Positions 17 to 46,740 of a DNA stretch of 49,024 nt are shown one piece after another. The position numbers and the translations under genes are program-made. This DNA comes from a virus. The notes beneath the pieces were generated by a model. The model did not search any database. It saw only the letters and a list, made by a program, of their open reading frames with translations, and was not told the origin of the DNA. Each line of letters begins with the position of its first letter. The first letter of the stretch is position 1. The stretch is from positions 1 through 49,024 of the IMG/VR virus record IMGVR_UViG_3300030098_004410; one strand, 5' to 3'.

Positions 17-60
17 TATTTAACTCTTTTCATTCTATATACAATTGTTATATCATTAAT
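1..60. repeat. 60-base repeat identical to 46725-46784
   Basis: The first 60 bases of the window match 46725-46784 without a mismatch (offset 46724), covering the end of the propeller gene and the start of the MSIRR gene. Further in, the two copies diverge. It is the left tip of a larger duplicated module. Confidence 0.9.
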
Positions 61-29088: not shown

Positions 29089-29090
29089 GA

Positions 29091-29303: not shown

Positions 29304-29320
29304 TAAAAAGGAGATAAGAA

Positions 29321-29887
29321 ATGAGCCTATTTGAAAAGTTAAATAAAATAGATGTCAATAAACATAAAAAGAAGAAAGGTCAGTTTGATTACTTGAGTTG
29401 GCCTTTAGCAATCCAAGAGCTATTAAAGGTTTGTCCTGATGCTACTTGGGAGGTGCATGAATATTCAAACGAAGATGGATTGGTTGCACCTTATATGACA
29501 ACAAATGCAGGTTGCTTTGTTAGGGTGTCCGTTACTTGTGAAGATGTTACCAGAAGTCAGGTGCATCCAGTTACAGATAATAGAAATCAAACAATAGCAC
29601 AACCAACTGCACAAGACATTAATACATCAATACAAAGATGTTTAGCTAAAGCCATTGCATTGCATGGTCTTGGGTTATATATCTTTGCAGGTGAGGATTT
29701 ACCTGAGCCTGATGCATTAAATAGCAAGCAAAGAGGCGAGCTACTGGCGGTTGTTAAGAAACTTGACAATAAGTCGCTAGAAAGCGATATTTTGCGTAAA
29801 ATGGATAACTTACAGATTAATGTGAGAAACTTTGACGCATCTATCGAGAAACTAAACGAAATGAAAAAAGATAAGGAGAAGAAGTAA
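29321..29887 (+). CDS. Single-strand annealing protein, DUF1071/Sak3 type
   Basis: 188 aa. The family hallmarks are visible: a FDYLSWPLAIQELLKVCPDA opening, a VRVSVTCEDV strand, PVTDNRNQTI, and the conserved SIQRCLAKAIALHGLGLYIF followed by AGEDLP. DUF1071 proteins such as Sak3 bind and anneal single strands in phage recombination. AAAGGAG site upstream; the next gene (SSB-like) starts in its stop. With the Cas4-like nuclease upstream it forms a nuclease plus annealase pair. Confidence 0.85.
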   Translation: MSLFEKLNKIDVNKHKKKKGQFDYLSWPLAIQELLKVCPDATWEVHEYSNEDGLVAPYMTTNAGCFVRVSVTCEDVTRSQVHPVTDNRNQTIAQPTAQDINTSIQRCLAKAIALHGLGLYIFAGEDLPEPDALNSKQRGELLAVVKKLDNKSLESDILRKMDNLQINVRNFDASIEKLNEMKKDKEKK

Positions 29888-30531
29888 TGGCGAAAGTAAC
29901 AGATGACTTGTTTGATAAAGCAGTAAATGAAACAAGCTTTGCGATTCCAACAGAAGGAAAAGCAAAATCAGAAAGAAAAGGTAAAAAACATCCTTTGGTT
30001 GCAGGAGATTATCTTGGACATATTGTTCAAGTGAATAGCAAGGTTGTGGATGTTAAAGGGGGAGAGTTTAAAGCAAGAGTATATGATTACTTTGTTGAGG
30101 TTGCTCCTGAGAATAAAGAAAATACATACACATACACAGAGTACGACACAGATAATACTGTGAGTTGTGATGGCTCAAGTTATTCTGGTTATAAATTTAA
30201 AGGTTCTACTTTTAAATATTTAGAGCCAGGAAAAGATGATAAGTTTAAATCAAGGTCAGAGTTTAATAAATATTATCTTTGGTTTTGTGAGGCCTGTGGT
30301 ATTGAATGTAAGAGCATAACAACAGAGATAGATGGCAAGGATGTTGAGGTTAAAGAGCTCCCTGTTATTGATATGGAGGCTCTCGTTGGAACACCTGTGA
30401 GTGCAGTTGTTGGAAAAGGTAAAACTTGGACAGATAGTGAAGGTAGAGAAAGAACTCCTTGGGTGTGCAAGTTTGTAAGACCTTGGAAAGATGGGAAAAA
30501 GAAGGAGATGAGTGATGAAATACCGTTCTAG
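29887..30531 (+). CDS. SSB-like single-strand DNA-binding protein
   Basis: 214 aa ending EMSDEIPF. The acidic tail with a terminal Ile-Pro-Phe is the hallmark of bacterial SSB C-tips that recruit partner enzymes. The body is beta-rich (GDYLGHIVQVNSKVVDVKGG, then ARVYDYFVEVAPE) as expected for an OB fold and has a Cys pair at about residues 138-145. Start overlaps the annealase stop. Some phages carry such an SSB-like protein next to Sak-type annealases, so DNA-binding is a confident inference. Confidence 0.75.
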   Translation: MAKVTDDLFDKAVNETSFAIPTEGKAKSERKGKKHPLVAGDYLGHIVQVNSKVVDVKGGEFKARVYDYFVEVAPENKENTYTYTEYDTDNTVSCDGSSYSGYKFKGSTFKYLEPGKDDKFKSRSEFNKYYLWFCEACGIECKSITTEIDGKDVEVKELPVIDMEALVGTPVSAVVGKGKTWTDSEGRERTPWVCKFVRPWKDGKKKEMSDEIPF

Positions 30532-30649
30532 GATTAATAGTTTCAAATCCGTAATGATGAAGGGTGCATATTTTCTAGGCATGAAGCCTAAGAAGATTGC
30601 AAACAGGTTTAATGTGTCTTTAGCTAGTGTCTATAGACATATTAAATAA
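30515..30649 (+). CDS. 44-aa helix-turn-helix protein
   Basis: MKYRSRINSFKSVMMKGAYF to YRHIK. The C-terminal half GMKPKKIANRFNVSLASVYR is a resolvase- or homeodomain-type helix-turn-helix (helix KKIANRF, turn NVS, recognition helix LASVYRHI). Its start lies inside the end of the SSB-like gene after a GGAGATG site. Probably a small DNA-binding regulator. Confidence 0.65.
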   Translation: MKYRSRINSFKSVMMKGAYFLGMKPKKIANRFNVSLASVYRHIK

Positions 30650-30857
30650 TAAATTGGGAGAGTTCAGTGACCGTGAGGCTCTGACTGTAGCTGGGCGTTT
30701 TCGTGGTTCTCAGCAACCACTCCTTTCCGCCTTGAATCACAGGATTTGCTCTCCCAAAAAATTAACACCAGAAGAAAGGCTTAGGAGATATGTTGAACTT
30801 AAATACGGTAAACTAAATGTTAAGAAGAAACAAAAAATCGTCGAAAAGAAATCTTAA
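30627..30857 (+). CDS. Possible 76-aa protein (GTG start) overlapping an RNA-like stem
   Basis: A frame with a weak GTG start. The second half (KKLTPEERLRRYVELKYGKL) looks like real protein, the first half lies over the GC-rich inverted repeat at 30654-30757 and reads like noise. Either a genuine gene starting further downstream on a non-ATG codon, or a chance frame. No good ribosome site. Confidence 0.3.
   Translation: MSIDILNNKLGEFSDREALTVAGRFRGSQQPLLSALNHRICSPKKLTPEERLRRYVELKYGKLNVKKKQKIVEKKS
30654..30757 (+). ncRNA. Structured RNA candidate, GC-rich, closed by 9-bp stem
   Basis: TTGGGAGAG (30654-30662) pairs with CTCTCCCAA (30749-30757). Inside: GTGGTT (30703-30708) with AACCAC (30715-30720) over a six-base loop, GGCG (30694-30697) with CGCC (30728-30731), CTGT (30685-30688) with ACAG (30739-30742), and CAGT (30665-30668) with ACTG (30684-30687) as an alternative. 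About half G/C in a genome that is far more A/T-rich. Orientation on the plus strand assumed from neighbours. Known riboswitch and ribozyme cores were not recognised. Confidence 0.45.
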
Positions 30858-30984
30858 GCCTTTCAGAAGGTTTGATGAGGTTAGCATGAAGAGTAATATC
30901 TCTTTTTATGAGTGGTTTATTTTTATACTATCGTTTGGACAACTTTGTTTTTTGATATATTTAATGATAAGATTTTTTATATAA
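30817..30984 (+). CDS. 55-aa protein with basic N terminus and membrane helix
   Basis: MLRRNKKSSKRNLKPFRRFD to LMIRFFI: a strongly basic first 20 residues, then a hydrophobic span (WFIFILSFGQLCFLIYLMIR). An internal Met at 30886 with GATGAGG upstream would give a 32-aa membrane protein only. The frame overlaps the tail of the 76-aa frame. Confidence 0.45.
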   Translation: MLRRNKKSSKRNLKPFRRFDEVSMKSNISFYEWFIFILSFGQLCFLIYLMIRFFI

Positions 30985-30992
30985 GGAGAAAG

Positions 30993-31229
30993 ATGATGAG
31001 AAAGATAATAATATGTTTTTTAGCTATAGGGTTTATGTTTGGGCAAATTACAAAGATAGAGACCGATTATGGAGATTCAACTATAGTTAATGGGTTTTAC
31101 AAAAATGGGAGCTTAAAATTTGAGGGAACTAAAATCAAGAGATTTAAACACGGTAAATGGTATTATTATGATGAAAAAGGCTTTCTGATTAAAGTAGAGA
31201 AGTATCATCATGGGAGAAAAGTAAACTAA
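30993..31229 (+). CDS. Secreted/lipid-side protein with MORN-like repeats, 78 aa
   Basis: Start MMRKIIICFL at 30993 with AAGGAG just upstream; an open GTG-started extension upstream has none. The first 18 residues are a signal peptide (MRKIIICFLAIGFMFGQ). The rest, GFYKNGSLKFEGTKIKRFKH followed by GKWYYYDEKGFL, is the YwqK/MORN-type short beta-repeat that often occurs in exported proteins. A phage protein acting outside the cytoplasm, such as a superinfection or membrane modifier, would fit, but is inferred. Confidence 0.6.
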   Translation: MMRKIIICFLAIGFMFGQITKIETDYGDSTIVNGFYKNGSLKFEGTKIKRFKHGKWYYYDEKGFLIKVEKYHHGRKVN

Positions 31230-31351
31230 TGGATTGGAATGAAACTATAATATATAAAGAACTCCATTTTGTTTATATTGTAAATGGTCATAAATTTCTT
31301 ACCGAAGAGGAAGCTAGGAAATATATAGAGGAACAAAAGAATGCCAAATAA
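31229..31351 (+). CDS. 40-aa early protein
   Basis: MDWNETIIYKELHFVYIVNG to EEQKNAK. Starts on the previous stop (TAATG). A short strand-helix unit, no motif. Confidence 0.5.
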   Translation: MDWNETIIYKELHFVYIVNGHKFLTEEEARKYIEEQKNAK

Positions 31352-31454
31352 AAAAGCCAAACAAAGAAAATGGGATAAAAGAGAAAGGAGAGAGAAAATT
31401 AAAAGATGGAAAAGAGAGCAAAAAAGAAAAAAGAAGGAGATGAGAAATGGGTAA
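31341..31454 (+). CDS. 37-aa very basic protein
   Basis: MPNKKAKQRKWDKRERREKI to KEMRNG. Around two thirds of its residues are Lys, Arg, Glu or Gln; overlaps the preceding gene by 11 bases. Likely nucleic-acid binding or a charged filler; no motif. Confidence 0.45.
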   Translation: MPNKKAKQRKWDKRERREKIKRWKREQKRKKKEMRNG

Positions 31455-31608
31455 GATGAAGAATCATATATATGGATGGTTAGAGGATTATGGATTTGAT
31501 TTAGGCTATGATATGACAAACACTCCTTATCTGGAGGATTTTGAGTGGGTTGCAAATGATAGTGTTGATGCACAGACATATTGGAAAACAAAAACAATAG
31601 GAGAATAA
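31447..31608 (+). CDS. 53-aa early protein
   Basis: MGKMKNHIYGWLEDYGFDLG to KTIGE. AAGGAGATGAG site upstream inside the previous gene, with eight-base overlap. Acidic; no motif. Confidence 0.55.
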   Translation: MGKMKNHIYGWLEDYGFDLGYDMTNTPYLEDFEWVANDSVDAQTYWKTKTIGE

Positions 31609-31610
31609 TA

Positions 31611-31850
31611 ATGGGAAGAGCAATAGAGGTAGATAAAAGGCTTGATTCTTTAGAATTTAAAGTTAATGAGCTTTTTTTAATACTAGAGGAGTTGAGTAAA
31701 ACAAACACAACACAGGAGCATATAGATTTACATGAAACAGAAAAAAAAGAAGCCAACGATGAACCAAGTGGAGACAGTGGTAAACAGTCTGATAGTGGAA
31801 AATCAAAATCTAAGGCTAAATCTGGAGGCAGTACAAAGAGTTCTAAGTAG
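31611..31850 (+). CDS. 79-aa coiled-coil protein with Ser/Lys-rich tail
   Basis: MGRAIEVDKRLDSLEFKVNE, a heptad helix over about 45 residues, then a disordered GDSGKQSDSGKSKSKAKSGG tail. AGGAG site upstream. The last 92-119 bases also encode the start of the next gene in another frame, so the tail is overprinted. Function unknown. Confidence 0.6.
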   Translation: MGRAIEVDKRLDSLEFKVNELFLILEELSKTNTTQEHIDLHETEKKEANDEPSGDSGKQSDSGKSKSKAKSGGSTKSSK

Positions 31851-31956
31851 TTATATAGAATTTAAAAAAGACGAAAAGAAGTTTAAACAATACATAGAGG
31901 AAAAAAATGGAAAAGAAAATAACAGAAATAGTGATGCAAGTTCTAAAAAGAAATAA
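31759..31956 (+). CDS. 65-aa coiled-coil protein overlapping its neighbour
   Basis: MNQVETVVNSLIVENQNLRL to KKK, helical with heptads. The first possible ATG is 31732, the one given here 31759; neither has a good ribosome site, and no ATG exists after the upstream gene ends. Translation must therefore start inside that gene or arrive by reading-frame slip at the A8 run (31741-31748). Confidence 0.5.
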   Translation: MNQVETVVNSLIVENQNLRLNLEAVQRVLSSYIEFKKDEKKFKQYIEEKNGKENNRNSDASSKKK

Positions 31957-32158
31957 CTGGGGCGTTTATTTTAGAGGGCAAGCATTACAAGAACTCCCTG
32001 TAAGTGGAGAAGCATCTATGTACAGGGTAAACAGCGTGCGTGACGAATCAATAAGGGATGCAATATCGGAGGAGCTCAGTAGTATAGTAGACAACATCAA
32101 CAGTGAAGGAGAGACCGAATGGCATCAAAAGGAGAACAAAAGTTTAAACGAGACATAG
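31907..32158 (+). CDS. 83-aa early protein
   Basis: MEKKITEIVMQVLKRNNWGV to NKSLNET, overlapping the previous gene by 50 bases and the next by 40. GAGG site upstream. An N-terminal helix and an acidic middle; no motif. Confidence 0.6.
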   Translation: MEKKITEIVMQVLKRNNWGVYFRGQALQELPVSGEASMYRVNSVRDESIRDAISEELSSIVDNINSEGETEWHQKENKSLNET

Positions 32159-32385
32159 AGAATGGTTCGCACCTAGAGTATGTTCGCAAGATGAAGGTAT
32201 TTTATGAAGGGCTGTTTAGTGACCTAAGCTCTAAAATAGGTCAAGAATCAGAAGAGAAAGTAGTAGTGACAGAAAAAATGCTACACAAAATAGAAGAACG
32301 TTTGTCTGAGTTCGAGAAAGAAGAGAAAGAAATAATACATAGTTGCAGGAGACTAATCGGAGAAGTAGAAGGAATTACTGCTTAA
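32119..32385 (+). CDS. 88-aa helical early protein
   Basis: MASKGEQKFKRDIENGSHLE to EGITA. AAGGAGAG site upstream inside the previous gene. Largely coiled coil with a charged middle. It precedes the helicase by 30 bases, so it might be a helicase loader or accessory; this is only positional. Confidence 0.6.
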   Translation: MASKGEQKFKRDIENGSHLEYVRKMKVFYEGLFSDLSSKIGQESEEKVVVTEKMLHKIEERLSEFEKEEKEIIHSCRRLIGEVEGITA

Positions 32386-32414
32386 GCTCCTGCCTTAATA
32401 GAAAAGGAGAAAAA

Positions 32415-33773
32415 ATGAACACATTTGTTCCATTTGACACCAACTTAGAAAACGGTGTCTTGGGAGCATTGATTCTAACTCCTGAAGTGTACCCTAAAAT
32501 AAGAGATTTTTTATCCACTGATGAAGTCTTTCATCAAAAGAAATCTCGTATGCTTTGGAAGAAACTAAAATCAATGCTTGATAGAGAAGAATTTATTGAC
32601 TTAAATACAGTAACAGCAACCCTAACAGATGAAGATGTGAATAAAGGGTTGAATCATATATATGTTGTTGATTGCACAATGGCTACAGGAGTTTCAAGCT
32701 CCGCACCTGCTTATGCAAGAAAACTATATGAGAAATATCTTCTTAGAAAGGTTGTTGAAGAAACCCAAAAGATACAAGATTCAGCAATGGATAATAGCAA
32801 TGAGACCTATGATTGTATTGTTAGTGCTCATACATTATTTGCAGAGCTTATTGACCTTAATCCAGGCAAAGAAAAACAATCCATTGATTCATTATTATAT
32901 GATGCAGTTGAAGATATCCAAAACAAGGAAAGCAATCTAATAAAGACAGGATATGAAGCTGTTGATAAGTTTGCTGGTGGGTTAACAAGAGGTGAGATTA
33001 CAATCATTGGAGGGAGGCCAGGACATGGAAAAACCACAATGATGATTAACTTACTTGCAAGCCTAATAGAAAGCGGTCATAAAGTAGCCTTGTTTAACCG
33101 AGAATTGCCTAATGTAGAGGTTATTAAGAAGCTTATGTGTCTGGAGTCGAAGAAGCTATCATATTCGCTTATAAGGCAAGGAATACATAGTCAAGAATCT
33201 TTGGCGTATGTGAAAACCGTCAAAGAATTAATCAAAAATAAATATAATGAAGATAAATTTATGATGTTTGACAACATTAGAGACTTTGCAAAAACAGCAT
33301 CAGAGGTTAAGAAATTCAAGCCTGATGTTATTATGGATGATTATATTCAGCTTGTTGCTCCTGATGGTAAAATACCTGAGAGAAGATTGCAACTTGAGAA
33401 GCTTGTTAATGATTATAAATGGCTTTCAAAGCAGATGAAATGTGCTGTAATATTAGCATCACAGCTTAATCGCTCTATTGAGTCAAGATATAAGAATGTC
33501 AGGCCTCAGCTATCAGACCTTGCAGAAAGTGGTGCAATTGAGCAGGTGGCTGAGAATGTATTCTTTGTTTATTATGATTATAAAATAAATGGAGAAGATG
33601 GAAAAGGAAAGAACATCATCACGTTCGTTGCCAAGAAAGTTAGATATGGAGAGACTGGAGAGTCTGATATGGGGTACAATGGTGATAAATGCAAGATATA
33701 TGATAATTATGATGAGTTTATTAACTCAATCAAAAGAAAGGAGATGATGGATGAAAAAGAACTCCCATTTTAA
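32415..33773 (+). CDS. dnaB: DnaB-type replicative helicase
   Basis: 452 aa, start MNTFVPFDTN at 32415 behind AAAGGAG. N-terminal domain about 1-145 with LENGVLGALILTPEVY; RecA-like motor with Walker A GRPGHGKT (200-207), Walker B VIMDDYIQL (305-313), ASQLNRS (348-354) and an AKKVRYG (406-412) arginine-finger-like motif. Unwinds DNA at replication forks and depends here on the host or outside-window primase. The last residues, MMDEKELPF, resemble an SSB C-tip, which is unusual for a helicase. Its end overlaps the resolvase start. Confidence 0.9.
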   Translation: MNTFVPFDTNLENGVLGALILTPEVYPKIRDFLSTDEVFHQKKSRMLWKKLKSMLDREEFIDLNTVTATLTDEDVNKGLNHIYVVDCTMATGVSSSAPAYARKLYEKYLLRKVVEETQKIQDSAMDNSNETYDCIVSAHTLFAELIDLNPGKEKQSIDSLLYDAVEDIQNKESNLIKTGYEAVDKFAGGLTRGEITIIGGRPGHGKTTMMINLLASLIESGHKVALFNRELPNVEVIKKLMCLESKKLSYSLIRQGIHSQESLAYVKTVKELIKNKYNEDKFMMFDNIRDFAKTASEVKKFKPDVIMDDYIQLVAPDGKIPERRLQLEKLVNDYKWLSKQMKCAVILASQLNRSIESRYKNVRPQLSDLAESGAIEQVAENVFFVYYDYKINGEDGKGKNIITFVAKKVRYGETGESDMGYNGDKCKIYDNYDEFINSIKRKEMMDEKELPF

Positions 33774-34227
33774 GTATATAGGAATCGACCCAGGAAAGTC
33801 TGGGGGAATAACAGTAATTGAAAATGGGTCTATCAAGACCTATAAATGCCCTCAGCGAACAGAAGACATGTCGACATTATTTTCTCTGCTTGTTGGGAGT
33901 ACTTCCTCCTATGATGTTAAGCTGTTAATGGAGAGGGTGTGGGCAAGACCAAATAACGCAGTAAGGTCAGCATTTGCGTATGGAGTTAATTATGGACAAT
34001 GGATGGGCATTGTGGCCTGTCATGAGATTCCACTGCAAACCTGCCTTCCAAATGAATGGATTAAATATTATGGGTGCAGTAAAGACCTTGAATACCAAGA
34101 AAGAAAAAGATGGCTTAAAGATAAAGCCAAGTCCTTATATCCGAATTTGAATGTTACTTTAATGACAGCAGATTCAATATTGATTGCTGACTATGCAAAA
34201 AAGGAACATTTTAAGGATAGGGATTGA
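33751..34227 (+). CDS. RuvC-like Holliday junction resolvase
   Basis: 158 aa RNase-H fold. D13 in YIGIDPGKSGG, E61 in LLMERVWARPNN, and D141 with D147 in TADSILIADYAKK are the metal-binding acids in the expected order. It would cleave branched replication and recombination intermediates before packaging. It overlaps the helicase end by 23 bases with a GGAGATG site inside that gene and the next gene starts in its stop. Confidence 0.8.
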   Translation: MKKNSHFKYIGIDPGKSGGITVIENGSIKTYKCPQRTEDMSTLFSLLVGSTSSYDVKLLMERVWARPNNAVRSAFAYGVNYGQWMGIVACHEIPLQTCLPNEWIKYYGCSKDLEYQERKRWLKDKAKSLYPNLNVTLMTADSILIADYAKKEHFKDRD

Positions 34228-34682
34228 TTACATTAAAAAAAATAATAGAAACCTGCGGAAAAGCAGAAATATATAAAGGAGATAGATGGATGCCAGTAAC
34301 AGAAGAAGTGCAACAAAAGTTTGATTTGGATTTAGAGTTTGGAAGATTGGGAGAGGATTTTGTTGAAGCCTTCCAGAGTGAGAATACAAAGATTGAAGTT
34401 AAAACAGAAAGAGATATGTGGAAGACAACAGGCAATATTGCAATTGAGATTAGATGTAATGGGAAGTTGTCAGGTTTATCTGTAACAGAAGCTGAGACTT
34501 GGATTCACTTATTAAGCTATAATAATAAGATTGAAGGTGGCTTTATATTTAATACAGGATATTTAAAGGATAGAATCGGTGAATTGCATAAGAATAAAGA
34601 GGTTAAGGTTATAATGGGGGGAGATAATAAGCTATCTCAAATGGTTCTTGTTCCAATTGAAAAGTTATTTAAGGTTGACTGA
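34224..34682 (+). CDS. PD-(D/E)XK nuclease, last early gene
   Basis: 152 aa with a TTG start that overlaps the resolvase stop (TTGATTAC). Motifs: E44 in GRLGEDF, E58-V-K60 in KIEVKTERD, then TGNIAIEI and LSGLSVTEAETWIHLL, the arrangement of a phage PD-(D/E)XK endonuclease family. It may cut branched or host DNA. Its final 18 bases overlap the end of the giant minus-strand gene. Confidence 0.7.
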   Translation: MITLKKIIETCGKAEIYKGDRWMPVTEEVQQKFDLDLEFGRLGEDFVEAFQSENTKIEVKTERDMWKTTGNIAIEIRCNGKLSGLSVTEAETWIHLLSYNNKIEGGFIFNTGYLKDRIGELHKNKEVKVIMGGDNKLSQMVLVPIEKLFKVD

Positions 34683-37600
34683 TGAATAAACAGAGTATTT
34701 ATTCCAATATTTTCTATTGTTTATTACTTTTTCGTAGCTAGCTTTTAATTTTTTATAATCTTTAACAGCTTGTCTAAATTCATAGCTTCCTTTATCTCCA
34801 AATTTTTCTTGGATAAATCTTAAAAAGTCAGCTTTTTTAGACAAGACAACGCCTTTAGGTGTTTCTGCTGACAAGTTCCCAGGCTCCATTGTTCTAAGTG
34901 AGCTGTTCAAGGCCTTCTTAGCATTTTTATGCTTCCAAGCTAGAGTGGTTTTCCCTTCCATTCTTTCTAATTCTGTTATAATGTAGTTATAAGCAGCATA
35001 ATATGCTTTTGCAATTTTCTCTTCATTCCCAACATAAATTGCTTCTTTTAAATCTTTATAATAGACTTGTCTCTTTGAGAACTCTTGTTCTGAAGACATT
35101 TTAAATTCACCTCTTCTGTCAATATAAAATTGTCTTTCCCAGTTATTAATTTTACGAGCATTAGCATATTCTTTTGAAAGAGTAGTTTTTCTCATCGTAT
35201 CGTATTGATTAAAAACAACTACAGTTTCAAGAGCTGTGTTGTTTATGAATTTTGAAAGAGATTGGTCCCCTGAAAACCATTTATAAAAATTGCTTCCAGC
35301 ACTCATTAAATTTCTATGTATAACTGGTTGAGATAATGATTGAAACATACCCTTATCATACGGGCTAATAGTCTCTCCAAATAAACCTAAAAACTCTGAC
35401 CTCCATAAATACATTGATGCCTTATCAAGTTCAGTGCTTGCAGACTTTGGAGGTTCAGTTTGAAATAAATATTTGTATAATCCATACAATCCTATACCTG
35501 CAAAATAATGCCCTAATGTAGCCCTTGCAAGAGGTGCAAAATTTCCATATTGAATTGCTGGTTTGAAATAGTTTTTAGCAGAATCATATGTTGTTGCGTA
35601 TGCCATTCTTTGGAATAAAGTAAAAGGTTTTGCTATAGATGATGATGCCCATAAAGGCAACCTCCATGCTGATGTTCCCCCTTGTGTTGAAAAATGAGAC
35701 ATTTGCTCAACGTGCTTAATAATATCTTCAAGTCTTTTTTGATTTTTAGGAAGACTTAAGTCTGCAGTTTCAAGCATTAATCTCTCTTTTTTAGGTATTT
35801 GCCAAACATCCTTCATCATCCTTCTAACATCTCGCTTTCTAAAACCTGAAAAAAGACCAGGTCTATTTCTTAGCACATCTAATTTAGTTCTAAATGCTAA
35901 TTTCCCAGCTTCCATTGCAACAATTCTATTCATATTCTCTGTTGAGGTCATTAAGTTAAACTTAAACAATTTCTCCATTATACTTCCTGGAGTTTTTCCG
36001 AGTTCTAAAGTATCAGGGGCGTAATTTAGTATTCCTTTTTCTTTTGCTTCTTTCCAAGCCCTAGGAGAAAATACTTTTGCCATTCCTCTCATAGTGTTAA
36101 TAGGGCCAAAAGTAGCAACATTACGAGGCATTCCAATTAATAAGTTTTTAATACCTGAAGTTGGAGAAGATAAACCAATCGCTGCAGAAGTATGAGCAAC
36201 ACCTGCAAATAAATCCGATATACCTTTACCAACTACTTCAGTTTTTTCAGCTCCTATTAATCTTTGAATTCCTTTTAAAGCATATGCAGAAGCATATGTG
36301 TCTTTTATTCCAAGTCTTGTAATAGCCTCTACTGTACTACCAGCTCCAAATTTTCCACCAAGGTCTGTAAATTCAGGAAAATGCCTTACTGTTGAAATGC
36401 TTTTACCCATACCTTCGGTATATTTTTCAGCACTTTTTCTTTTAGTATGCTCGTAAGTTCTAATTACTTTAAATTTTCCATTTGCATCTTTAACTTGAAT
36501 AAACTCATCTAATAAAGGCCCTCTTTCCATTAAAAATGTATTACGAGCTACTTTATTTTCTTTAATTGATTGATAGTAATAAGATTTATATATATCAGGC
36601 TCAAACTCTATTTCGTATTTTTCTTTTAATTTTGCATATTCAGCATCATATTTCTCTGTTCCTTTTTTATACTTTTTAGATGCTTGTTTCCTTGCAAACT
36701 TGGAGGCTTTAGCAGAAACTTTTTCTTTTATAGCCTTTTCAATAGCTCCAGACTGAATGCCATGTTTTATCAAGTCTTTGGTAGCAACCCTTGAAAAATA
36801 TCCAGTCACATGTTTTTCATTATGCTCTTGTAAAAACTTTTCAAATTCTGCAGGGTTTAAATTTTTCTTAGCAGCAGTCTCCCTTAGTCTCCACATTTTC
36901 TTGCTATATCTATCCCAAATTCTTTTTGCTCTATATTCGGGAGATTTTTTGTCGAATAACATATTTTCTAAAAATTGAATTTTATCTTTAGATAAAGAAT
37001 GCTTACTGTCTATCCACCATTCAGGCTTTTGGTGCTTTTCGTTAATTACAAACTTTTTCTTTTTACTATCAAGCTTGTATCCAGACTGTTTAATCCTATG
37101 GAGTGCTCTTTCTCCGTCAAATAAATCCCAATAACTAAGTTCTTTTTTACCATACCTAGGTCGTAAAATCTCACTCATTAAATCTATTGCATCTCTCCCT
37201 CTTCCTCTAAGACGATTAAAATCTCTTTCCCATGCAAATCCAGAATCAGCCACTTTACCTAAGTTAAACTTTCTTAAAACCTCATACACTGGAAGAAAAC
37301 TATTAATAAGTTTTTGTTGCCAAGTAACATTCCCTTCCATTCCTGCAAAAGAATCTATCCCTGTAAAACGCTCAGTTTTTGTAGCTCCTTCCTTTACCAC
37401 TTGTTGATATAATTTTTTACTTTTTGGAGTTAACGAGCCTAAGCTTCCATCTAAAGAGCCTAATGATTTAGCAATTCCTTGCGAAGTAATTGTATTGATT
37501 CCATACTCCAAATTTAAATCTTCAAGCCTATTGTTTATCTTCTTTTTATTTAACTTAATTTCACGAAGTTCGTCAGCCCACTGCTTAACTTGACCTAAAG

Positions 37601-40600
37601 AAACCTTGCCTTCTTTAATCCAACCTTTTTGAGTTCCTTCTTTTGGAATATTATAACTCTCTCTCAATGCATCCATATCAGCTTTTTTCATACCATAGGT
37701 TGAATATTTATTTAATATTTCTTTTTCAAAAGGTTTTCCTATTTTACCATACTCTGCCTGGACAACCTTACTATCAGTTTGATAATGAGTTTCAAGTTGA
37801 TTTACAAAGTTTTTAACTCTCCTGTCGAGAGGGAAATCCCCTTTTACAACTTTACGAGATAATAAATAAGCGACATCTTCTGGCTTAGATAAGCCTAAAA
37901 CATCTTTTAAGCGAAGAACTAATTCTTTTATCCAGTTTTTTGCCCTTGTTGTAAGTGCTACATTTTTAACTTTACCTGGAATTTGCTCAGGAATCAACCT
38001 CCCTATAGCGTCTACAAGCTCTTCTTTCTGAGCTTCTCTAAATTTAAAATCTCCCTTTGCTCCTTTTTCATAGTTTTCTCTTTTTATATCTCTTGCAAAA
38101 GTTTTAATTCCTCTTTCTATATGAGATTTATCTCTGGCTGTTCCAAATTTTTCTAAAATATCAATAACTGGGTGTGTGAGTTCATGTGGAAGAGTGTCAG
38201 GTTTAACCTTTCCCTTTGAAACTTGAACAGTAAATGTTTCTATTTGACCTAAAATTCTTTTGCCATTATTCTTACCAAGTTTTTGGCCTAGTAGAATTTC
38301 AAAGTCATCATATTTAGGATTTTTTCTAAAGAACTGTTTTTGAGTTTCTACAAGTTCTTGCGTTGCCTCAAGCTTTTCTTTTAACTCAGCAAGTTGACGT
38401 TTAGTTGCAGGGGATTTTTTTGCTGGAACGACACCTTCTCTTGCGTCTAATATTTTCATCAACGCAGCATGTGTATCTTCTATTAAAGTGGCACGATTAA
38501 CATCCTTACCATATATTGATTGTATTGTAGTTCTTTCATGTCCTAACATGTTATTTATAAGTCTTGTCTCTGTAGCAGTTAAATTTGCTTTTGTGCCAAA
38601 AAACATTTCCTGTTGAAGCATGTCCCTAAAATCATCAAAAACAGCCTTATCATAACCCGTTTTAATTTTAGCATTAACTGCCTTTCTCACTTGGTCTTTA
38701 AACTTGTCTCCTAAAAGAACTTCGTTTGACTTTAATTTATATTTATCTATAAAACTTTTAACTGACTTTGCAAGTTTATTAGATATTGGAATTGTTCGAG
38801 GCTCTCCTTGCTTGTCAGTAACTTTTCTCATTTCAATAACATTAATAGCGTCCTTAGATGTGTCAATTCCTTTTGATATTTTACCATTTTTTAAATGAAC
38901 AAAATCTTTAACAGATATTCCTGAGCGAGGAACATTTACAGGGTCCACTGTAAAAAATTCTTGATTTCTTATTCCAACCTCATTTCCAATTTCAAGCATA
39001 AGCTTAGCTCTGTCGTTAACAGGCTTATTGTTTTTAGCTTTACTTAAATCGGAAACAAATTTATTTATTTTTTTTACAAAACTTTCTGGTGAAGGTAATT
39101 CCTTTTTTCTTAATTTTACTTGTTTATTATAGGCATTAAACACCGAATTTAGCCACGCTGCAGGATTATCAGGAGCATTAAAACCTTGCTTTGATGATGT
39201 CCAGTTATAAAGATTCCTTAAAGGAGAGACAGTGTCAGGTCTTAGGTCTTTTATTTTTTTACCTTTTGATTCAAAATATAATCTAATATCTTCAGGACCA
39301 ACATCATAAAAATCTATTTTTTTATCTTTTAAGTATTGAATGTAGTCTTTTAATTTAGCCCCATAGCTTTTTATTGTCCCTGTTGCCACATCGCCTTTTT
39401 TAGCTTTTATTTGTTTTAAGGATTGTTCAACTGAAGTTTGCAATAAAGGGTCTTCATTAATTTTAGAAATTTCATTTAATCTTTTTTGAATAAGGTCTTT
39501 AGTAGTTCCTTTAGGCCATTTCGTAGCCACGGTTTCGCCTGTACCCCTATAAAATCTTTCTAATTTTTCTTTAGATATGCCTAACTTCCTTCCTTTAAAA
39601 GGCTCTCTTATCATTCCTACGCCTTCTTCAACTATTGGGAGAAGTTCTTCTTTCATTTTTTTCAATGGGGCTTGAGCCAACTTTTCAGCTTTAATCTGTT
39701 CTGCCTCAGCTTGCTTGAAAATTCTTTCTATAATTCTTTCTTTTTTAGAAGGTTCTGATAAAGCTTTAACAGGGACTTCTATACCATATTTCTTTGCCTC
39801 TTTTTTTATTGCTTTGTCAGACATTTCTACTTTAGCTTCTGATAAACTAAATCCGTCTATTAAATATTCTTCAGGAGCTTTTGCTGCCTTAACTTTACCA
39901 TCAACCCATTCATACTTGTTAAATTCTCCGCTAGTCCATTCTTTAAGTGCGGTAGCTTCACTTAATAGTTGTTCTTGTGCAGAAGTTTTATTACTTTTAC
40001 CTTCAAGTTCTTGTTTGATAGCTTCTAAGTTATTATTTAGTTTCTTTATTAATACTGGATTGTCTTCAATTTTCCTTGCATCACCAGATTCAAATGCTTT
40101 ACGTATATAATCAGCATCTTTTTGCAATTGCTTCAATCTTCCTTGCGTTTCAGCTATCTCAACATCAAACCCAGCTTTTTGAGCTGCAACCTCAGCAAGC
40201 CCTTCTCCATTTGTTTTTTCATTGACAGTCTTTTCAAGACCATCCATAGCATCTTTTTCAGCTTGCTTTCTTCTTACATACTCTTTTTCAGTATCTTTCC
40301 AAAAATCTTTACCTTTTTTCCAAAACTTTCCACCAGCCTCAGCTCCTCTCTCAACCCCTTTACCTAATCCTTTATGAACTAATTTTAATCCAGAGAACAA
40401 TCCAACATTACGTGCAAATGTTCTTAGTATTGAATCTGCATCTAAATCTTCTCCTGATGCTAATTTATGACCAAGTTCACTTATAGAGAATACTGATGAC
40501 TCTGCTGCAATCTGGCCAGGCATTCCATATATTCCATAAGCTCTAATTTTATCAAAGCCAACAGGGTTCCCTTTTGTTTGTGCTAATATCTGGGCTTGCT

Positions 40601-41366
40601 TTGCCCCCATACCGCCACCAATACCTCCAGTAAGGGCTCCCATAACACCACCATGAAAAACTCCTTTAGCAATAGCAGGAAACACATCCTCGCCATTCAA
40701 CCGAGCCTGAACACCGCCAACAGCCCCTTCATATAATGCTAACGCAGGAGCTTGTCTGGTTGCTCCAATTAACGCACTTTTAACTTTTGAATTTGATAAA
40801 ACTTTAGCGATGGCTTGTTGTGAAATATCTTTTGCTGCCTCACCAGTTAATCCTTTTTTAACGCCAGCTTTTGAAGCTTCTTTTAAGGCATTACCAAAAA
40901 GCCCGTTTTTGACAGCTGTACCAGCAATAGCTCTTCCTGCAAGAGAACCCGCACCAAGTGTTAATAAATCAAGAGGCATAAAGAAAGATATAAGGCTAGC
41001 CCCGATATCCTGCAATAATGTAAAATCCTCTTCATCAACATTATATCTTTGGTCGCCTGATATTAATTGTTCAGTCATTCCTCCCAATGAACGATTATAA
41101 CCAGCCTTCATCCAGTCATAAGAATCTTCATTGACAAACCAATCTGCCGCCCTTGCAAAGAACCCTAAATCTTGTTGCGGTCTTGCACTTAATCCTTGAG
41201 ACGTTCTGATTTGTTTATCTTTTTCTTTCCAAATTGCGCTTTCGGGGATTTGATTTTTTCTACTTAAAATAGAATAAAGCTGTTCATCATTAAACATATT
41301 ATATGTTGATGGGCCTGTTTGTCTGGCTTTATTTAGAAAACTTGCTGTTTGTTGTGGTATTGGCAT
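34665..41366 (-). CDS. 2233-aa giant virion protein with tyrosine recombinase and metalloprotease modules
   Basis: About residues 1-350 are rich in Gly/Ala with hydrophobic, membrane-like spans (LQDIGASLISFFMPLDLLTL; GVMGALTGGIGGGMG). About 360-600 is helical. Residues about 650-745 look like the SAM-like core-binding domain and 770-970 like the catalytic domain of tyrosine recombinases: R800 in EVGIRNQEF, K848 in MRKVTDKQGEPR, R914 in FDDFRDM (Asp where His is usual), H943 in NMLGHERTT, Y952 in QSIYGK. H1061-E-L-T-H1065 with E1116 in EELVDA matches a zincin metallopeptidase. The C-terminal 800 residues are large and helical with a hydrophobic FAGIGLYGLYKYLF. It closes the virion-protein cluster, so it is probably an ejected internal protein of the polyvalent kind. 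Confidence 0.7.
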   Translation of the reverse strand: MPIPQQTASFLNKARQTGPSTYNMFNDEQLYSILSRKNQIPESAIWKEKDKQIRTSQGLSARPQQDLGFFARAADWFVNEDSYDWMKAGYNRSLGGMTEQLISGDQRYNVDEEDFTLLQDIGASLISFFMPLDLLTLGAGSLAGRAIAGTAVKNGLFGNALKEASKAGVKKGLTGEAAKDISQQAIAKVLSNSKVKSALIGATRQAPALALYEGAVGGVQARLNGEDVFPAIAKGVFHGGVMGALTGGIGGGMGAKQAQILAQTKGNPVGFDKIRAYGIYGMPGQIAAESSVFSISELGHKLASGEDLDADSILRTFARNVGLFSGLKLVHKGLGKGVERGAEAGGKFWKKGKDFWKDTEKEYVRRKQAEKDAMDGLEKTVNEKTNGEGLAEVAAQKAGFDVEIAETQGRLKQLQKDADYIRKAFESGDARKIEDNPVLIKKLNNNLEAIKQELEGKSNKTSAQEQLLSEATALKEWTSGEFNKYEWVDGKVKAAKAPEEYLIDGFSLSEAKVEMSDKAIKKEAKKYGIEVPVKALSEPSKKERIIERIFKQAEAEQIKAEKLAQAPLKKMKEELLPIVEEGVGMIREPFKGRKLGISKEKLERFYRGTGETVATKWPKGTTKDLIQKRLNEISKINEDPLLQTSVEQSLKQIKAKKGDVATGTIKSYGAKLKDYIQYLKDKKIDFYDVGPEDIRLYFESKGKKIKDLRPDTVSPLRNLYNWTSSKQGFNAPDNPAAWLNSVFNAYNKQVKLRKKELPSPESFVKKINKFVSDLSKAKNNKPVNDRAKLMLEIGNEVGIRNQEFFTVDPVNVPRSGISVKDFVHLKNGKISKGIDTSKDAINVIEMRKVTDKQGEPRTIPISNKLAKSVKSFIDKYKLKSNEVLLGDKFKDQVRKAVNAKIKTGYDKAVFDDFRDMLQQEMFFGTKANLTATETRLINNMLGHERTTIQSIYGKDVNRATLIEDTHAALMKILDAREGVVPAKKSPATKRQLAELKEKLEATQELVETQKQFFRKNPKYDDFEILLGQKLGKNNGKRILGQIETFTVQVSKGKVKPDTLPHELTHPVIDILEKFGTARDKSHIERGIKTFARDIKRENYEKGAKGDFKFREAQKEELVDAIGRLIPEQIPGKVKNVALTTRAKNWIKELVLRLKDVLGLSKPEDVAYLLSRKVVKGDFPLDRRVKNFVNQLETHYQTDSKVVQAEYGKIGKPFEKEILNKYSTYGMKKADMDALRESYNIPKEGTQKGWIKEGKVSLGQVKQWADELREIKLNKKKINNRLEDLNLEYGINTITSQGIAKSLGSLDGSLGSLTPKSKKLYQQVVKEGATKTERFTGIDSFAGMEGNVTWQQKLINSFLPVYEVLRKFNLGKVADSGFAWERDFNRLRGRGRDAIDLMSEILRPRYGKKELSYWDLFDGERALHRIKQSGYKLDSKKKKFVINEKHQKPEWWIDSKHSLSKDKIQFLENMLFDKKSPEYRAKRIWDRYSKKMWRLRETAAKKNLNPAEFEKFLQEHNEKHVTGYFSRVATKDLIKHGIQSGAIEKAIKEKVSAKASKFARKQASKKYKKGTEKYDAEYAKLKEKYEIEFEPDIYKSYYYQSIKENKVARNTFLMERGPLLDEFIQVKDANGKFKVIRTYEHTKRKSAEKYTEGMGKSISTVRHFPEFTDLGGKFGAGSTVEAITRLGIKDTYASAYALKGIQRLIGAEKTEVVGKGISDLFAGVAHTSAAIGLSSPTSGIKNLLIGMPRNVATFGPINTMRGMAKVFSPRAWKEAKEKGILNYAPDTLELGKTPGSIMEKLFKFNLMTSTENMNRIVAMEAGKLAFRTKLDVLRNRPGLFSGFRKRDVRRMMKDVWQIPKKERLMLETADLSLPKNQKRLEDIIKHVEQMSHFSTQGGTSAWRLPLWASSSIAKPFTLFQRMAYATTYDSAKNYFKPAIQYGNFAPLARATLGHYFAGIGLYGLYKYLFQTEPPKSASTELDKASMYLWRSEFLGLFGETISPYDKGMFQSLSQPVIHRNLMSAGSNFYKWFSGDQSLSKFINNTALETVVVFNQYDTMRKTTLSKEYANARKINNWERQFYIDRRGEFKMSSEQEFSKRQVYYKDLKEAIYVGNEEKIAKAYYAAYNYIITELERMEGKTTLAWKHKNAKKALNSSLRTMEPGNLSAETPKGVVLSKKADFLRFIQEKFGDKGSYEFRQAVKDYKKLKASYEKVINNRKYWNKYSVYSSVNLK

Positions 41367-41376
41367 TTAATAATAT

Positions 41377-42921
41377 TTATTTTCTCACACCTTGACGACC
41401 AGTTCCACCTAATATTGGTTCACGCTTTGGAAGCTTTGTTAACTCACCGAGAATTCCAACATTATAACCCTCTGAGTTAAGTTGCGAAAGAATATCTCTC
41501 CTTAATTCTTTTACTTTATTAATAGCTTTAGCGTTATTTGGAGAATTTTTATAAATTTGTTTTAGCTTGTTACTATAGTCGGTATATTTTTTATGCAAAT
41601 TATTTATTTTGGCTGAAGGAGGTTTTATTTTTGACTCTTCTGCATGTATAATTTTTCTTTCAAAGCCTGGCAAACCAAGTTCTTTATCTATTTCGTCTTT
41701 CACAACAACTACTTTTGATGCTTGACCTGCTTTAGGTCTTTCAACGCCTTCTGGTAAAGCGTCTTCAGTGGTAATTATAGTAGATTGTGAAGTTTCTTCA
41801 CCAGTTTGATTAATAATATCTGCATTTATTTTAAAATCATTTTTAGAGAAATCAGCCCAACTACCTTCAAACCCATAAGCTTCAGGAACTTTTTCAAAAG
41901 ATTCATCTCTATACATTAAATCCTGATAAGCAGCTCCTGTTATGCTACTATTTAATTTTTTTAATTCTTTATATATCTCTGCTTGAGAAAGCCGCAGCAT
42001 AACCTCATCCCCTGGCTGTAGTTTTGTATACCCTTCTTCATCACCACCACCAATTAAATCTTGGTTAATATATTGCGCATATAAAAGATTACTAAGTGAG
42101 CCAGTGCTAGAAGCTCTACCTAAAGCATCAAATTGCTCTTTTAATGCTTTAAATTGCTTAATATCTGTATCAGCTAAATTGTCTGCCAAACCTTGTCTTC
42201 TATTTTCAAATGCTTTTAAGTCCTCATAATTCCCCGTACTTATTCCACTAGAATAAAGATTATATTCAGTTTCATCAATCTTATCGTCTGCTCTCCAGTT
42301 ATCTAATATTGACTTCATATATGATTGCGATGTAACCATATCATTCATCATGTACGGGTCAATCCTATCTCCATGTTTCCCATACCAATTTCTTAAATCA
42401 TAAGAATAAGTTTGCATCATTTTTTTAAAATTAGCTTCTTCTTCTAATCTAAATTGTTTTTCGTCTTTTCCTCCACGAATTTCTGCTCTTTGTTCTTCAG
42501 TTGTACCTTCTTTATTGTAATCATACATCATCTGAACCCAATCTGCAACACCTTTATGTTTATCAATCATTGACTGGTATTTCATATCAAAATCAGTGTT
42601 ATTTGCCATTTGATTTTTTAATCTTTGCTCCATAAGATTAAACATATCCATGCTTTCTGCAGTTGCATCGCTTATTTTTTCTTCTTTAAATTTTGTAAGA
42701 GAGTCAAGCCTTTGTTGTAAAATATTGTTATCAGTTATTTTTTCAAAACCTTCGGTTAAAGTCGCTAAATATCTTTGATTGTATGCTTCACGTCTATCTC
42801 TATTAGCCTGAACTCTGCCTGCAATGTTGGAACCAATGCCCAATACTCTTTCAAGTGTATCCAATGCAGACGATTGCTGAATACCTTCTCTTCTTCCTCT
42901 ATTCCAATATTCTTCAGCCAT
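41377..42921 (-). CDS. Internal virion/ejection protein, 514 aa
   Basis: Mainly helical, charged, with long heptad stretches (RLDSLTKFKEEKISDATAES, then QRLKNQMANNTDFDMKYQSM) and a disordered Lys-rich end. Length and composition resemble ejected core proteins of podoviruses, and it lies between two other internal-type genes and the giant protein, whose start is ten bases downstream. No enzymatic motif. A gp15-like role is positional inference. Confidence 0.6.
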   Translation of the reverse strand: MAEEYWNRGRREGIQQSSALDTLERVLGIGSNIAGRVQANRDRREAYNQRYLATLTEGFEKITDNNILQQRLDSLTKFKEEKISDATAESMDMFNLMEQRLKNQMANNTDFDMKYQSMIDKHKGVADWVQMMYDYNKEGTTEEQRAEIRGGKDEKQFRLEEEANFKKMMQTYSYDLRNWYGKHGDRIDPYMMNDMVTSQSYMKSILDNWRADDKIDETEYNLYSSGISTGNYEDLKAFENRRQGLADNLADTDIKQFKALKEQFDALGRASSTGSLSNLLYAQYINQDLIGGGDEEGYTKLQPGDEVMLRLSQAEIYKELKKLNSSITGAAYQDLMYRDESFEKVPEAYGFEGSWADFSKNDFKINADIINQTGEETSQSTIITTEDALPEGVERPKAGQASKVVVVKDEIDKELGLPGFERKIIHAEESKIKPPSAKINNLHKKYTDYSNKLKQIYKNSPNNAKAINKVKELRRDILSQLNSEGYNVGILGELTKLPKREPILGGTGRQGVRK

Positions 42922-42935
42922 ATAAATTTCCTATT

Positions 42936-43703
42936 TTAAGGGGTTGACATTAATTCTTGCCAGCCATATATTGTATCTAATACATCCTCAGTTGCACCAG
43001 CTCTCATTTTCATGATGTCACTAAGAATGTCTTCATATCCACCACGATATAATCTTTCAGCTCCTGATAATCCTGACTGTCTTGCTCCACTTCCTGCAAA
43101 CCCACCAGTTGATACTCCACCTCTTGCTTTTCCAAGTTTCTCAACAAGAGATTCTCTTTGAGCTTCTTCATATGGATTATAATATGCTGATGTTGTTTTC
43201 TCAATCATCTCAGGAGTTAATGCTTTGACTTCACCTGCTCTTATTGGGTCTCCTGTATCTGGGTCAATCCCCCCAAGCTGAGATAATGTTGCTGCAAGGC
43301 TTTCAGGGTCAAATACATTTGTAAGATTTAATAGACTTTCAAATGAATTTTCAGGGTCAAAATACCCTGTACCCGATTCTTGTACAGAGTCTGTAAGAGC
43401 TTGAACATCCCAATCGATAGATGTTCCCTCATCTCCAAATAACACATTTACATCTTCACCAAGAAAAGGATTACTTGCAGTTCCAGAAAATCCGCTTTGA
43501 AGTTGGGAGGCTATATTAAAAGAATCAGCAGAAAAAACATTGCCAAGTGCTTGCATTATTTCTGGAGACATTCCTTGATATTGATATCCAGGCAAAGTGA
43601 AATCCCATGCATAGTCTTCAGACATAGATGGAGAAGCCCAAAAACCTTGTAAGTAGCCTAAAAAGTCTTGCTCGTTTATATATGGATTACTTCCATTTGG
43701 CAT
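42936..43703 (-). CDS. Internal virion protein, 255 aa
   Basis: Start MPNGSNPYINEQDF at 43703 is preceded by AGAGGAGG; the longer frame to 43787 is unlikely. Gly/Ser/Asp-rich with TGGFAGSGARQSGLSGAERL, a pattern found in phage internal or tape-like proteins that end with an amphipathic helix (GYEDILSDIMKMRAG). Coupled to the 318-aa gene (stop and start within four bases). Function by position. Confidence 0.6.
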   Translation of the reverse strand: MPNGSNPYINEQDFLGYLQGFWASPSMSEDYAWDFTLPGYQYQGMSPEIMQALGNVFSADSFNIASQLQSGFSGTASNPFLGEDVNVLFGDEGTSIDWDVQALTDSVQESGTGYFDPENSFESLLNLTNVFDPESLAATLSQLGGIDPDTGDPIRAGEVKALTPEMIEKTTSAYYNPYEEAQRESLVEKLGKARGGVSTGGFAGSGARQSGLSGAERLYRGGYEDILSDIMKMRAGATEDVLDTIYGWQELMSTP

Positions 43704-43704
43704 T

Positions 43705-44661
43705 CTAATATCCTCCTCTATATGGATTTCTAAATTGTGGTTGTGCATAAGGACTTGATGTGACCTTTGGAGTTGATAATGCTCCATATGCTGATGGACC
43801 CATAGCTCTTAAAAGAGCCAGCGCTATTGGGCTCTTCATAAATTCTTGCTTAGTAAGGCCTTGCATCCAGTCTGGCATTATAGATTTAAACATTTCTTCA
43901 TCTAAAGCAATTGATGGCTTTCCAAGAGTTGCTTCAGCAATAGATTTAGGAAAACTCTTAGTTGGGATAATAGCTTCATCTAAAACATCATCACTATAAT
44001 TTGATTTAGGGACAGGATTCATATCTCTCATATCTTGATATAAGGTATTAGACCAGTCTCCTTTTGGTGCACCAGGACCCCCCTTATAATCCATTGCCTT
44101 CATAATATCTCCAGAATCTTTTACAGGAATATCTTCCATAATTGTTTCTCCAGGAACTTTCTCTCGTGAAACAGGCATAATTAAAGATGCAAGAATATTT
44201 GACATTATATCGCCTTGCATCATTGCATCAAGTTGGTCTGAGAATACTTCTTCAGTTGCTGCAACATCTTCATATTGCTTTCTACCTTTCAATTTTTGCT
44301 TGAGTTCTTTTAATTTTTGTGTTGGCTTATATTTATCTCTTCTTGCTTTCTCAGCAATTCCAGCCCCAGCACCTGCACTTAATGCTCCTATGCCTGAAGC
44401 TAACCCTGCTCCCATCCCTGGAAATAAAAGATTAGCCCCCATTCCAAGCAATCCACCGAGAAGAGAGCCTCCAAGGCCAGCAAAACCCTTATCCTTCTTT
44501 GACTTTCTCTTCGCATCAGCAATTGCTTCATTAATTTCTTTGATTATATCTTTTTGATGTTGATATTGAGCAAACAAAGCATCGGCCTCTCTTGCTCCTT
44601 CTTTAACTCTACCCATTGGGTCACCAGAGGCTATTTTTGCTAAGTCATATATGTTTGCCAT
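43705..44661 (-). CDS. Internal virion protein with hydrophobic Gly hairpin, 318 aa
   Basis: After a helical opening (ADALFAQYQHQKDIIKEINE) comes a long Gly/Ala/Leu stretch at about 59-105 (GLGGSLLGGLLGMGANLLFP) that could form a membrane hairpin. The rest is polar with several Pro/Asp turns. Such Gly-zipper hairpins are seen in podovirus ejection proteins that cross the inner membrane. GGGAG site upstream. Confidence 0.6.
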   Translation of the reverse strand: MANIYDLAKIASGDPMGRVKEGAREADALFAQYQHQKDIIKEINEAIADAKRKSKKDKGFAGLGGSLLGGLLGMGANLLFPGMGAGLASGIGALSAGAGAGIAEKARRDKYKPTQKLKELKQKLKGRKQYEDVAATEEVFSDQLDAMMQGDIMSNILASLIMPVSREKVPGETIMEDIPVKDSGDIMKAMDYKGGPGAPKGDWSNTLYQDMRDMNPVPKSNYSDDVLDEAIIPTKSFPKSIAEATLGKPSIALDEEMFKSIMPDWMQGLTKQEFMKSPIALALLRAMGPSAYGALSTPKVTSSPYAQPQFRNPYRGGY

Positions 44662-45961: not shown

Positions 45962-46740
45962 TATGGCGTCGTAAATCCTGCGTTTCCTACCCCAAAGCAT
46001 CTTTGAGTGGTAGCATCCCAATAGAAACTAAAAACATCATAGCCTGAGTTTGTATATGTAGGGGCTGTTCCTCCAGGCCACATTACACCTGCAGTTGTAG
46101 CAGCGCTTTCATCTGATTCATAAGCCTTCCAATTAGTGACTGACCAACCTCCTGAAGACCTTGTATTTAATAGAAAATTACCCGAGACTGATGGGAATAT
46201 AAGATTCATATTTGTAATTGATAATGCAGCAGGTTCTAAATAGTATTTATTTGAATGTCTAAAATCTATATCTGTATCATTTCCACCACCACCAATAACA
46301 ACAGAAGCTCCTGCGGTAGCCTCAATCTGAGTAAATCCTATACAAGCATTATCTACATCTACTGTATTTCCATCAACTCCTGCTTCTGTAATCTGAAAAA
46401 TCATATCATCACCTACTTTTAAGATAATATCACCTGATGCATCCAGTGTAAAATCGCCAGTAACTGAATATGTATTTGGAAGTCTGAATTTTTTGATTGT
46501 TGAAACAATCTTTTGAAGGTTATTCAAACTCTTTTCAAGGTCATCAAATGACTCTCCAACCTTGACTCCATTCCATTTGCCTGCTGCTTTGATATATAAT
46601 TTCAATCCATCAGAAGTTCTTCTGAATGTTAAATCTCCATCATCTCCTTGAGAGTTTAAAGGTTTTCCTTTGCCAATGGTTGGTCTTGCAGATTTTCTTG
46701 CTTCATTAAGTCTGTCAATGCTTGTTCTTCTTATTGACAT
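45961..46740 (-). CDS. Fibre-type protein (MSIRR), 259 aa
   Basis: Residues 30-55 (DDGDLTFRRTSDGLKLYIKA) form a short beta unit common near the N terminus of phage tail fibres; a coiled-coil helix (SFDDLEKSLNNLQKIVSTIK) follows, then beta-rich segments and a C terminus ending WDATTQRCFGVG. Start overlaps the propeller stop as TAATG. The same five-residue opening occurs at the left edge of the window, so the gene is part of a duplicated pair. Confidence 0.65.
   Translation of the reverse strand: MSIRRTSIDRLNEARKSARPTIGKGKPLNSQGDDGDLTFRRTSDGLKLYIKAAGKWNGVKVGESFDDLEKSLNNLQKIVSTIKKFRLPNTYSVTGDFTLDASGDIILKVGDDMIFQITEAGVDGNTVDVDNACIGFTQIEATAGASVVIGGGGNDTDIDFRHSNKYYLEPAALSITNMNLIFPSVSGNFLLNTRSSGGWSVTNWKAYESDESAATTAGVMWPGGTAPTYTNSGYDVFSFYWDATTQRCFGVGNAGFTTP

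Follow-up and report, generated by a model that had tools for sequence, protein, structure and literature searches.

The integrases and recombinases of well-studied phages are produced once infection has begun, and Cre circularises the incoming P1 genome. Among described systems, those closest to the locus analyzed here are the polyvalent proteins with a zincin hub, for which packaging in the virion, injection and self-processing have been proposed (Iyer et al. 2017, PMC5512222). The words recombinase and integrase are absent from the main text of that study, and FtsK wHTH domains are rare members of the polyvalent set. In podovirus JC1, a 4515-aa DarB-like giant protein is found in purified virions, and its gene follows that of a 510-aa virion protein (PMC9144972).

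The locus analyzed here lies in a window of 49,024 nucleotides (the whole stretch of DNA under study) that comes from an uncultivated virus record. It encodes a giant protein with the features of polyvalent proteins, namely, large size, unrelated catalytic domains, a tyrosine recombinase (YR) and a zincin, and virion genes as neighbors.

Genomic setting of the giant gene and its relatives

The initial annotation described a giant ORF that closes a cluster of internal virion protein genes. The ORF is present, on the minus strand and with an ATG start, and its terminal position in the cluster is collinear in the related record G001. The gene, its conserved parts and its upstream neighbors are as follows.

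34665..41366, minus strand: giant ORF, 2233 aa, final gene of the structural (tail/internal virion) cluster
40017..41366, minus strand: residues 1-450 of the giant, conserved N-terminal body, with a weakly hydrophobic stretch at residues 117-135
34665..37778, minus strand: residues 1197-2233 and the stop codon, conserved C-terminal body, the basis of the family tree
41377..42921, minus strand: 514-aa protein directly upstream of the giant, syntenic in relatives
42936..43787, minus strand: 283-aa protein, likewise part of this cluster and conserved in relatives
43705..44661, minus strand: 318-aa protein, weakly similar (E=0.0039) to the internal virion proteins with endolysin domain of PHROG 342

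The membrane-like segments previously suggested for the N-terminus reduce to the single weak stretch listed above (Kyte-Doolittle 1.42), with no clear transmembrane helices. Portal and terminase matches are present among the phage genes of the window. Its replication module (28300-34682) encodes a Cas4-like nuclease, a Sak annealing protein, a DnaB-like helicase and a RuvC-like resolvase; no DNA polymerase was detected among the ORFs scanned in this module. Near the ends of the window (16-4038 and 46740-48815), there are two minus-strand tail genes that both align to a single stretch of G001 (17.5-21.2 kb); these may be two versions of one locus on a circular map, or a tandem paralogue.

With the whole giant protein as the query, no relative was detected in viral contigs or phage isolates (50,697 phage records). 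Relatives were reached through the terminase TerL, whose 425 relatives led to related records and, from these, to their giants. The search with the family alignment yielded 63 loci, and that with the zincin alignment 34 more, partly overlapping; 57 giants were scored for the presence of a YR. The giant of record G008 is divided between two neighboring ORFs (L098, 1028-4084 and 4087-7773). Giant gp39 of CRP-5, which has a similar gene position, was rejected as a relative, there being no detectable relation.

Tyrosine recombinase and zincin-like domains

As judged by profile comparison and structure prediction, residues 640-975 are a tyrosine recombinase that consists of a core-binding domain and a catalytic domain, in agreement with the recombinase plan that the initial annotation had assigned to residues 650-970. 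Conservation was assessed in the A6 alignment, with the profile of residues 640-975 taken from the window protein and 19 relatives (20 rows). The features of this region are the following.

38442..39449, minus strand: YR module (core-binding and catalytic domain), residues 640-975, from profiles, profile-profile comparison and AlphaFold/Foldseek
39162..39404, minus strand: core-binding domain (SAM-like, helical), residues 655-735; PF02899/PF13495 sub-threshold, helical in the AlphaFold model
38967..38969, minus strand: R800, box I Arg (GIRNQE); R800 and E803 invariant in 20/20 A6 rows
38811..38813, minus strand: K852, probable catalytic Lys of the beta-hairpin (TDKQGEPRTIPI), from column conservation
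38625..38627, minus strand: R914, box II Arg, 16/20 A6 rows
38538..38540, minus strand: H943 of LGH, 14/20 A6 rows
38511..38513, minus strand: Y952, candidate nucleophile, 17/20 A6 rows, the other three being misaligned, with Tyr by eye
37779..38396, minus strand: zincin-like metallopeptidase domain, residues 991-1196
38172..38186, minus strand: HELTH, residues 1061-1065
38022..38024, minus strand: E1115, probable third zinc ligand

For the window protein alone, the matches to PF00589 (E=0.012 at 830-952), to SAM-like core-binding domains (660-703) and to the PHROG 216 integrase (E=0.0098) are sub-threshold but colinear. When the window's own record was searched in all six frames, PF00589 matched inside the giant ORF (E=1.8e-5) and nowhere else. 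Relative L107 matches Phage_integrase (PF00589) at 2.2e-13, above the curated cut-off, and contains the canonical HHFRHS...SHEPDKLTRTHY; core-binding domains score above curated cut-offs in L103 (PF02899), L124, L126 and L148. For comparison, a profile was built from XerD and eight plasmid YRs. In hhalign, the profile of residues 640-975 matched it with a probability of 97.1 and E=5.2e-11 over 248 columns that span the core-binding domain, box I, box II, LGH and Tyr. A bacterial YR profile that contains no giants matches the window giant (1.5e-5), L107 (4.6e-13) and L148 (2.2e-9), as well as giants L103, L123, L127, L101 and L128. Among PDB sequences, A6 has one significant match only, XerA (4a8e, E=2.5e-5).

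The AlphaFold model of residues 600-1190 (mean pLDDT 70.5; about 60-95 across most of the recombinase) is predicted to adopt a recombinase fold: in the Foldseek search against the PDB, the top matches were Cre, XerH and SroF (probability 1.00), with an integron integrase also matched, and the matches among viral models were integrases and VLF-1. The TM-scores are modest (0.4-0.5, depending on the target) because the two recombinase domains and a poorly modelled zincin share one chain. The dN/dS values in the YR part are 0.18-0.36 in four pairs.

All residues singled out in the initial annotation (R800, K848, D911, R914, H943, Y952, H1061-E-L-T-H1065 and E1116) occur at these positions, with nine residues from H943 to Y952. 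Conservation of R800, R914, H943 and Y952 had been set beforehand as a test of the recombinase reading, and all four are conserved in homologues that are only about 20% identical, ranking 2nd, 5th, 16th and 4th, respectively, among the 301 scored columns of residues 640-975. Three relatives (L104, L105 and L109) fail automatic alignment; by eye, R, R, GH or GQ, and Y are found in order. Given the predicted fold and the conservation of these four residues, the recombinase reading is not refuted. The catalytic Lys was reassigned: K848 occurs in the window protein only, with P or E in the nearest relatives, and in most A6 rows the beta-hairpin Lys falls on the K852 column or on one next to it, so that K852 rather than K848 is probably the catalytic residue. 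Asp911, noted earlier in place of the usual box II His (or Lys) three residues ahead of the Arg, is indeed present but is variable and not a family feature. D912 is D in 14 of the 20 A6 rows, and the textbook HxxRHS box, including the box II His, is found in relatives L107 and L125. The missing box II His weakens the YR assignment only a little because it is absent also from some accepted members of the YR family.

The zincin-like domain is located directly C-terminal to the YR. The HExxH motif recognized earlier is supported, with H1061, E1062, H1065 and E1115 invariant in 17/17 aligned zincin-bearing rows of A6. The invariant Glu after HExxH, and hence the probable third zinc ligand, is E1115, not E1116 as initially proposed. 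No Pfam zincin model matches the window protein (a SprT-like model reaches E=0.06 in two relatives), and the AlphaFold model is of low confidence around the motif. Weak relatives of the zincin domain (L192-L199) are present in large proteins encoded in contigs of mostly 68-119 kb (L199: 30 kb).

An exchangeable recombinase slot and a likely circular permutation

A YR is present in the same slot in 32 of the 37 giants of at least 2100 aa; these comprise 21 with the canonical domain order (20 identified by profile and L125 by eye) and 11 with a permuted one. The other five (L108, L136, L144, L148 and L154) have no clear YR, and none was found in the 18 shorter complete giants (1490-1880 aa). One shorter giant, L111, retains the zincin but has lost HExxH. 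The A6 and A7 profiles necessarily match the rows from which they were built, and independent support comes from the bacterial YR profile and from held-out matches, which the permuted profile gave to L126 (2.3e-20) and L121 (1.5e-60).

The recombinases in this slot are exchanged. In the C-terminal body tree (a quick tree), the sister of the window giant is L171, which carries a permuted YR, and L117 (canonical) is the sister of L178 (permuted); at least 8 changes between the canonical and permuted states are required. Giants L107 and L174 have close bodies and recombinases of different lineages. Thus, the slot keeps a tyrosine recombinase rather than one particular sequence. Nucleotide divergence between L103 and L123 is about 15-20% for the greater part of the N-terminal body and about 9-26% for that of the C-terminal body, whereas across residues 500-1100 it is 0-10%, mostly about 6% or less. 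Such a local drop in divergence would be expected if the slot had recently been exchanged as one block.

The giant L148 combines an FtsK-gamma domain (4e-14) with a lone YR core-binding domain (2.9e-10), at residues 579-637 and 859-943, respectively, without a catalytic domain. A general FtsK-Xer reading of the giant family was rejected because the FtsK-gamma of L148 is not joined to a catalytic YR domain.

The permuted catalytic domain is found in giants L112, L114, L116, L119, L171, L178, L181, L182, L184, L185 and L186 and is exemplified by one of them.

L112:5783-7015: likely permuted YR catalytic domain, in which box I comes last

The order in these proteins is core-binding domain, Lys hairpin, box II Arg, H/D, Tyr and, last, box I in the form T-x-P-R-x-x-E. 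In the numbering of the L112 segment, R235, Y275, T365, P367, R368 and E371 are invariant in the group and K166 is nearly so. In profile comparison, the match falls into two short, separate segments when the native order is kept (best score 22.7), whereas moving box I to the front results in a single continuous match with a score of 32.2. Among rotations of the profile, only those cut between Tyr and box I scored high. The improvement was more modest (33.7 to 38.6) when the core-binding domain was part of the comparison. Foldseek found no significant match for the model of the permuted domain, as expected, because the method depends on sequence order and cannot test a permuted one; the case for permutation therefore rests on profile rotation and on the conserved residues. 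That the YR catalytic domain of these giants is naturally circularly permuted, with box I at the C-terminus, is thus likely but not proven, given the modest profile scores. No such permutation has been described in the open-licence literature that we searched.

Proposed role and comparison with known systems

We consider it slightly more probable than the contrary that, in a P22-like podovirus, the giant serves as a polyvalent virion protein of the ejection type and delivers an active recombinase at DNA entry. The polyvalent, injected-protein reading fits the gene position, the zincin, the swapping slot and, by analogy, the podovirus giants (PMC5512222, PMC9144972). The synteny of the upstream genes and the portal and terminase matches likewise speak for packaging, delivery and self-processing. 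The giant, with its conserved N- and C-terminal bodies around an exchangeable central slot that holds the YR and then the zincin, would be made late, packed together with the head and tail parts, and enter the cell along with the DNA. The zincin would cut the polypeptide, probably in cis, and release the recombinase, which would introduce 3'-phosphotyrosine cuts and exchange strands in the first minutes, ahead of any phage gene expression. A late-made, particle-borne recombinase would act only on packaging or in the next infection, and the zincin neighbor favors the latter. The likeliest substrate would be the incoming linear phage genome, subject to circularisation or to end or dimer processing, as with Cre for P1; circularisation is our first guess, followed by integration and host interference. 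Points against this reading are the absence of giant homologues from the phage records searched, the replaced box II His, the low confidence of the zincin part of the model together with its missing Pfam match, and the outcome of the site searches. A scan of the window for dif-like sites found nothing above shuffled sequence, and no lox-type, near-perfect 12-bp inverted repeat was detected above chance in the window or G001, in a search that would miss degenerate sites. More tentatively, and at somewhat less than even confidence, the virion might carry a preloaded, active site-specific recombinase, held in a slot with interchanging lineages that include a circularly permuted one, which would recombine the incoming genome or the host chromosome before phage gene expression.

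Membership in the YR family would also be compatible with a virion-borne integrase that inserts the phage genome into the host chromosome at entry (for example, at dif or tRNA), making a separate int gene unnecessary. Indeed, as the initial annotation had stated, no separate integrase was found, in a PF00589 search that covered the window together with 34 related records, of which many are fragmentary. The replication genes examined, with Sak, the DnaB-like helicase and the RuvC-like resolvase present and no DNA polymerase, are consistent with integration, as is the combination of FtsK-gamma with a core-binding domain in L148. However, searches of 84,980 species genomes, with the zincin or TerL as the query and a reach limited to close relatives, identified no prophage of the group; no repressor was recognized among the scanned ORFs; the window contains no detected dif-like site; and the position in a late cluster would be unusual for an integrase, so that we regard integration as unlikely. 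We likewise doubt, somewhat more strongly, that the YR fold is catalytically idle or structural and serves to bind DNA while the genome is packaged or ejected, a use comparable to that in the repressors MrpR and SroF, which kept the fold. Although SroF and YopR (MrpR) are among the fold matches, MrpR kept the Lys and Tyr and lost the arginines and the recombinase function (PMC10516654), whereas the giants retain both arginines, His and Tyr at about 20% identity; in the permuted group, too, Tyr and the Arg residues of boxes I and II do not vary, and different YR lineages interchange in the slot.

A weapon against the host chromosome, nicking or relaxing host DNA like a type IB topoisomerase, or disturbing XerCD/dif like a hijacked Xer, seems more doubtful still. 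YRs and topoisomerase IB have a common catalytic core, polyvalent proteins are conflict effectors (PMC5512222), and the FtsK-gamma of L148 is, in bacteria, a KOPS-binding, XerD-activating domain; but this domain occurs in a single member, the topoisomerases among the Foldseek matches score much weaker than Cre and Xer, and the layout of core-binding and catalytic domains is that of a site-specific recombinase. We give very little weight to the idea that the virion recombinase works ahead of entry, when the genome is processed or packaged, in the manner of VLF-1/INT-1: these phages have an ordinary terminase, and the zincin neighbor and the ejection-protein-like position point to delivery. The precedent is VLF-1, also among the fold matches: this YR-family protein is part of the virion, production of infectious virus depends on its Tyr, and it has a role in bracovirus excision (PMC3649998).

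If the preferred reading, delivery of an active recombinase at DNA entry, is correct, the particle would be a hitherto undescribed vehicle for delivering site-specific recombination, and polyvalent proteins would gain a new activity. The permuted group would represent the YR catalytic domain in naturally circularly permuted form. Polyvalent proteins are already known, and the permuted group is the most surprising part.

With Cre, XerC/D/A/H and IntI, the giant shares the core-binding and catalytic domains, the R-K-x-R-H-Y order (with K852 as the probable Lys), the H-to-Y spacing and the fold; unlike these enzymes, its YR is embedded in a protein of the structural cluster, has Asp for the box II His, has no target site recognized in the scans and, in some relatives, has a permuted catalytic domain. 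VLF-1/INT-1 of baculoviruses, nudiviruses and bracoviruses are likewise YR-family proteins with a conserved Tyr, located in the virion, as the giant is presumed to be, but are stand-alone proteins of eukaryotic viruses, outside any giant zincin-bearing polypeptide. MrpR (YopR) and SroF of SP-beta-like phages are also phage proteins with a YR fold, MrpR being a repressor that lost the catalytic arginines kept in the giant family. JC1 gp69 and Bcep22 gp75 are similar in that a giant gene closes the virion module, after the gene of the 510-aa virion protein, the giant having been detected in purified particles in the case of JC1; these proteins differ in size (4515 aa in JC1), in being DarB-like antirestriction proteins and in having no detectable sequence relation to the giant. 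The polyvalent proteins (PMC5512222), including P1 DarB-like and N4 vRNAP-like giants, are the most similar in being very large, multidomain and encoded among virion genes, with a zincin hub and exchangeable catalytic domains; the giant described here shows no sequence similarity to the phages searched and differs from them in that its main catalytic cargo is a tyrosine recombinase.
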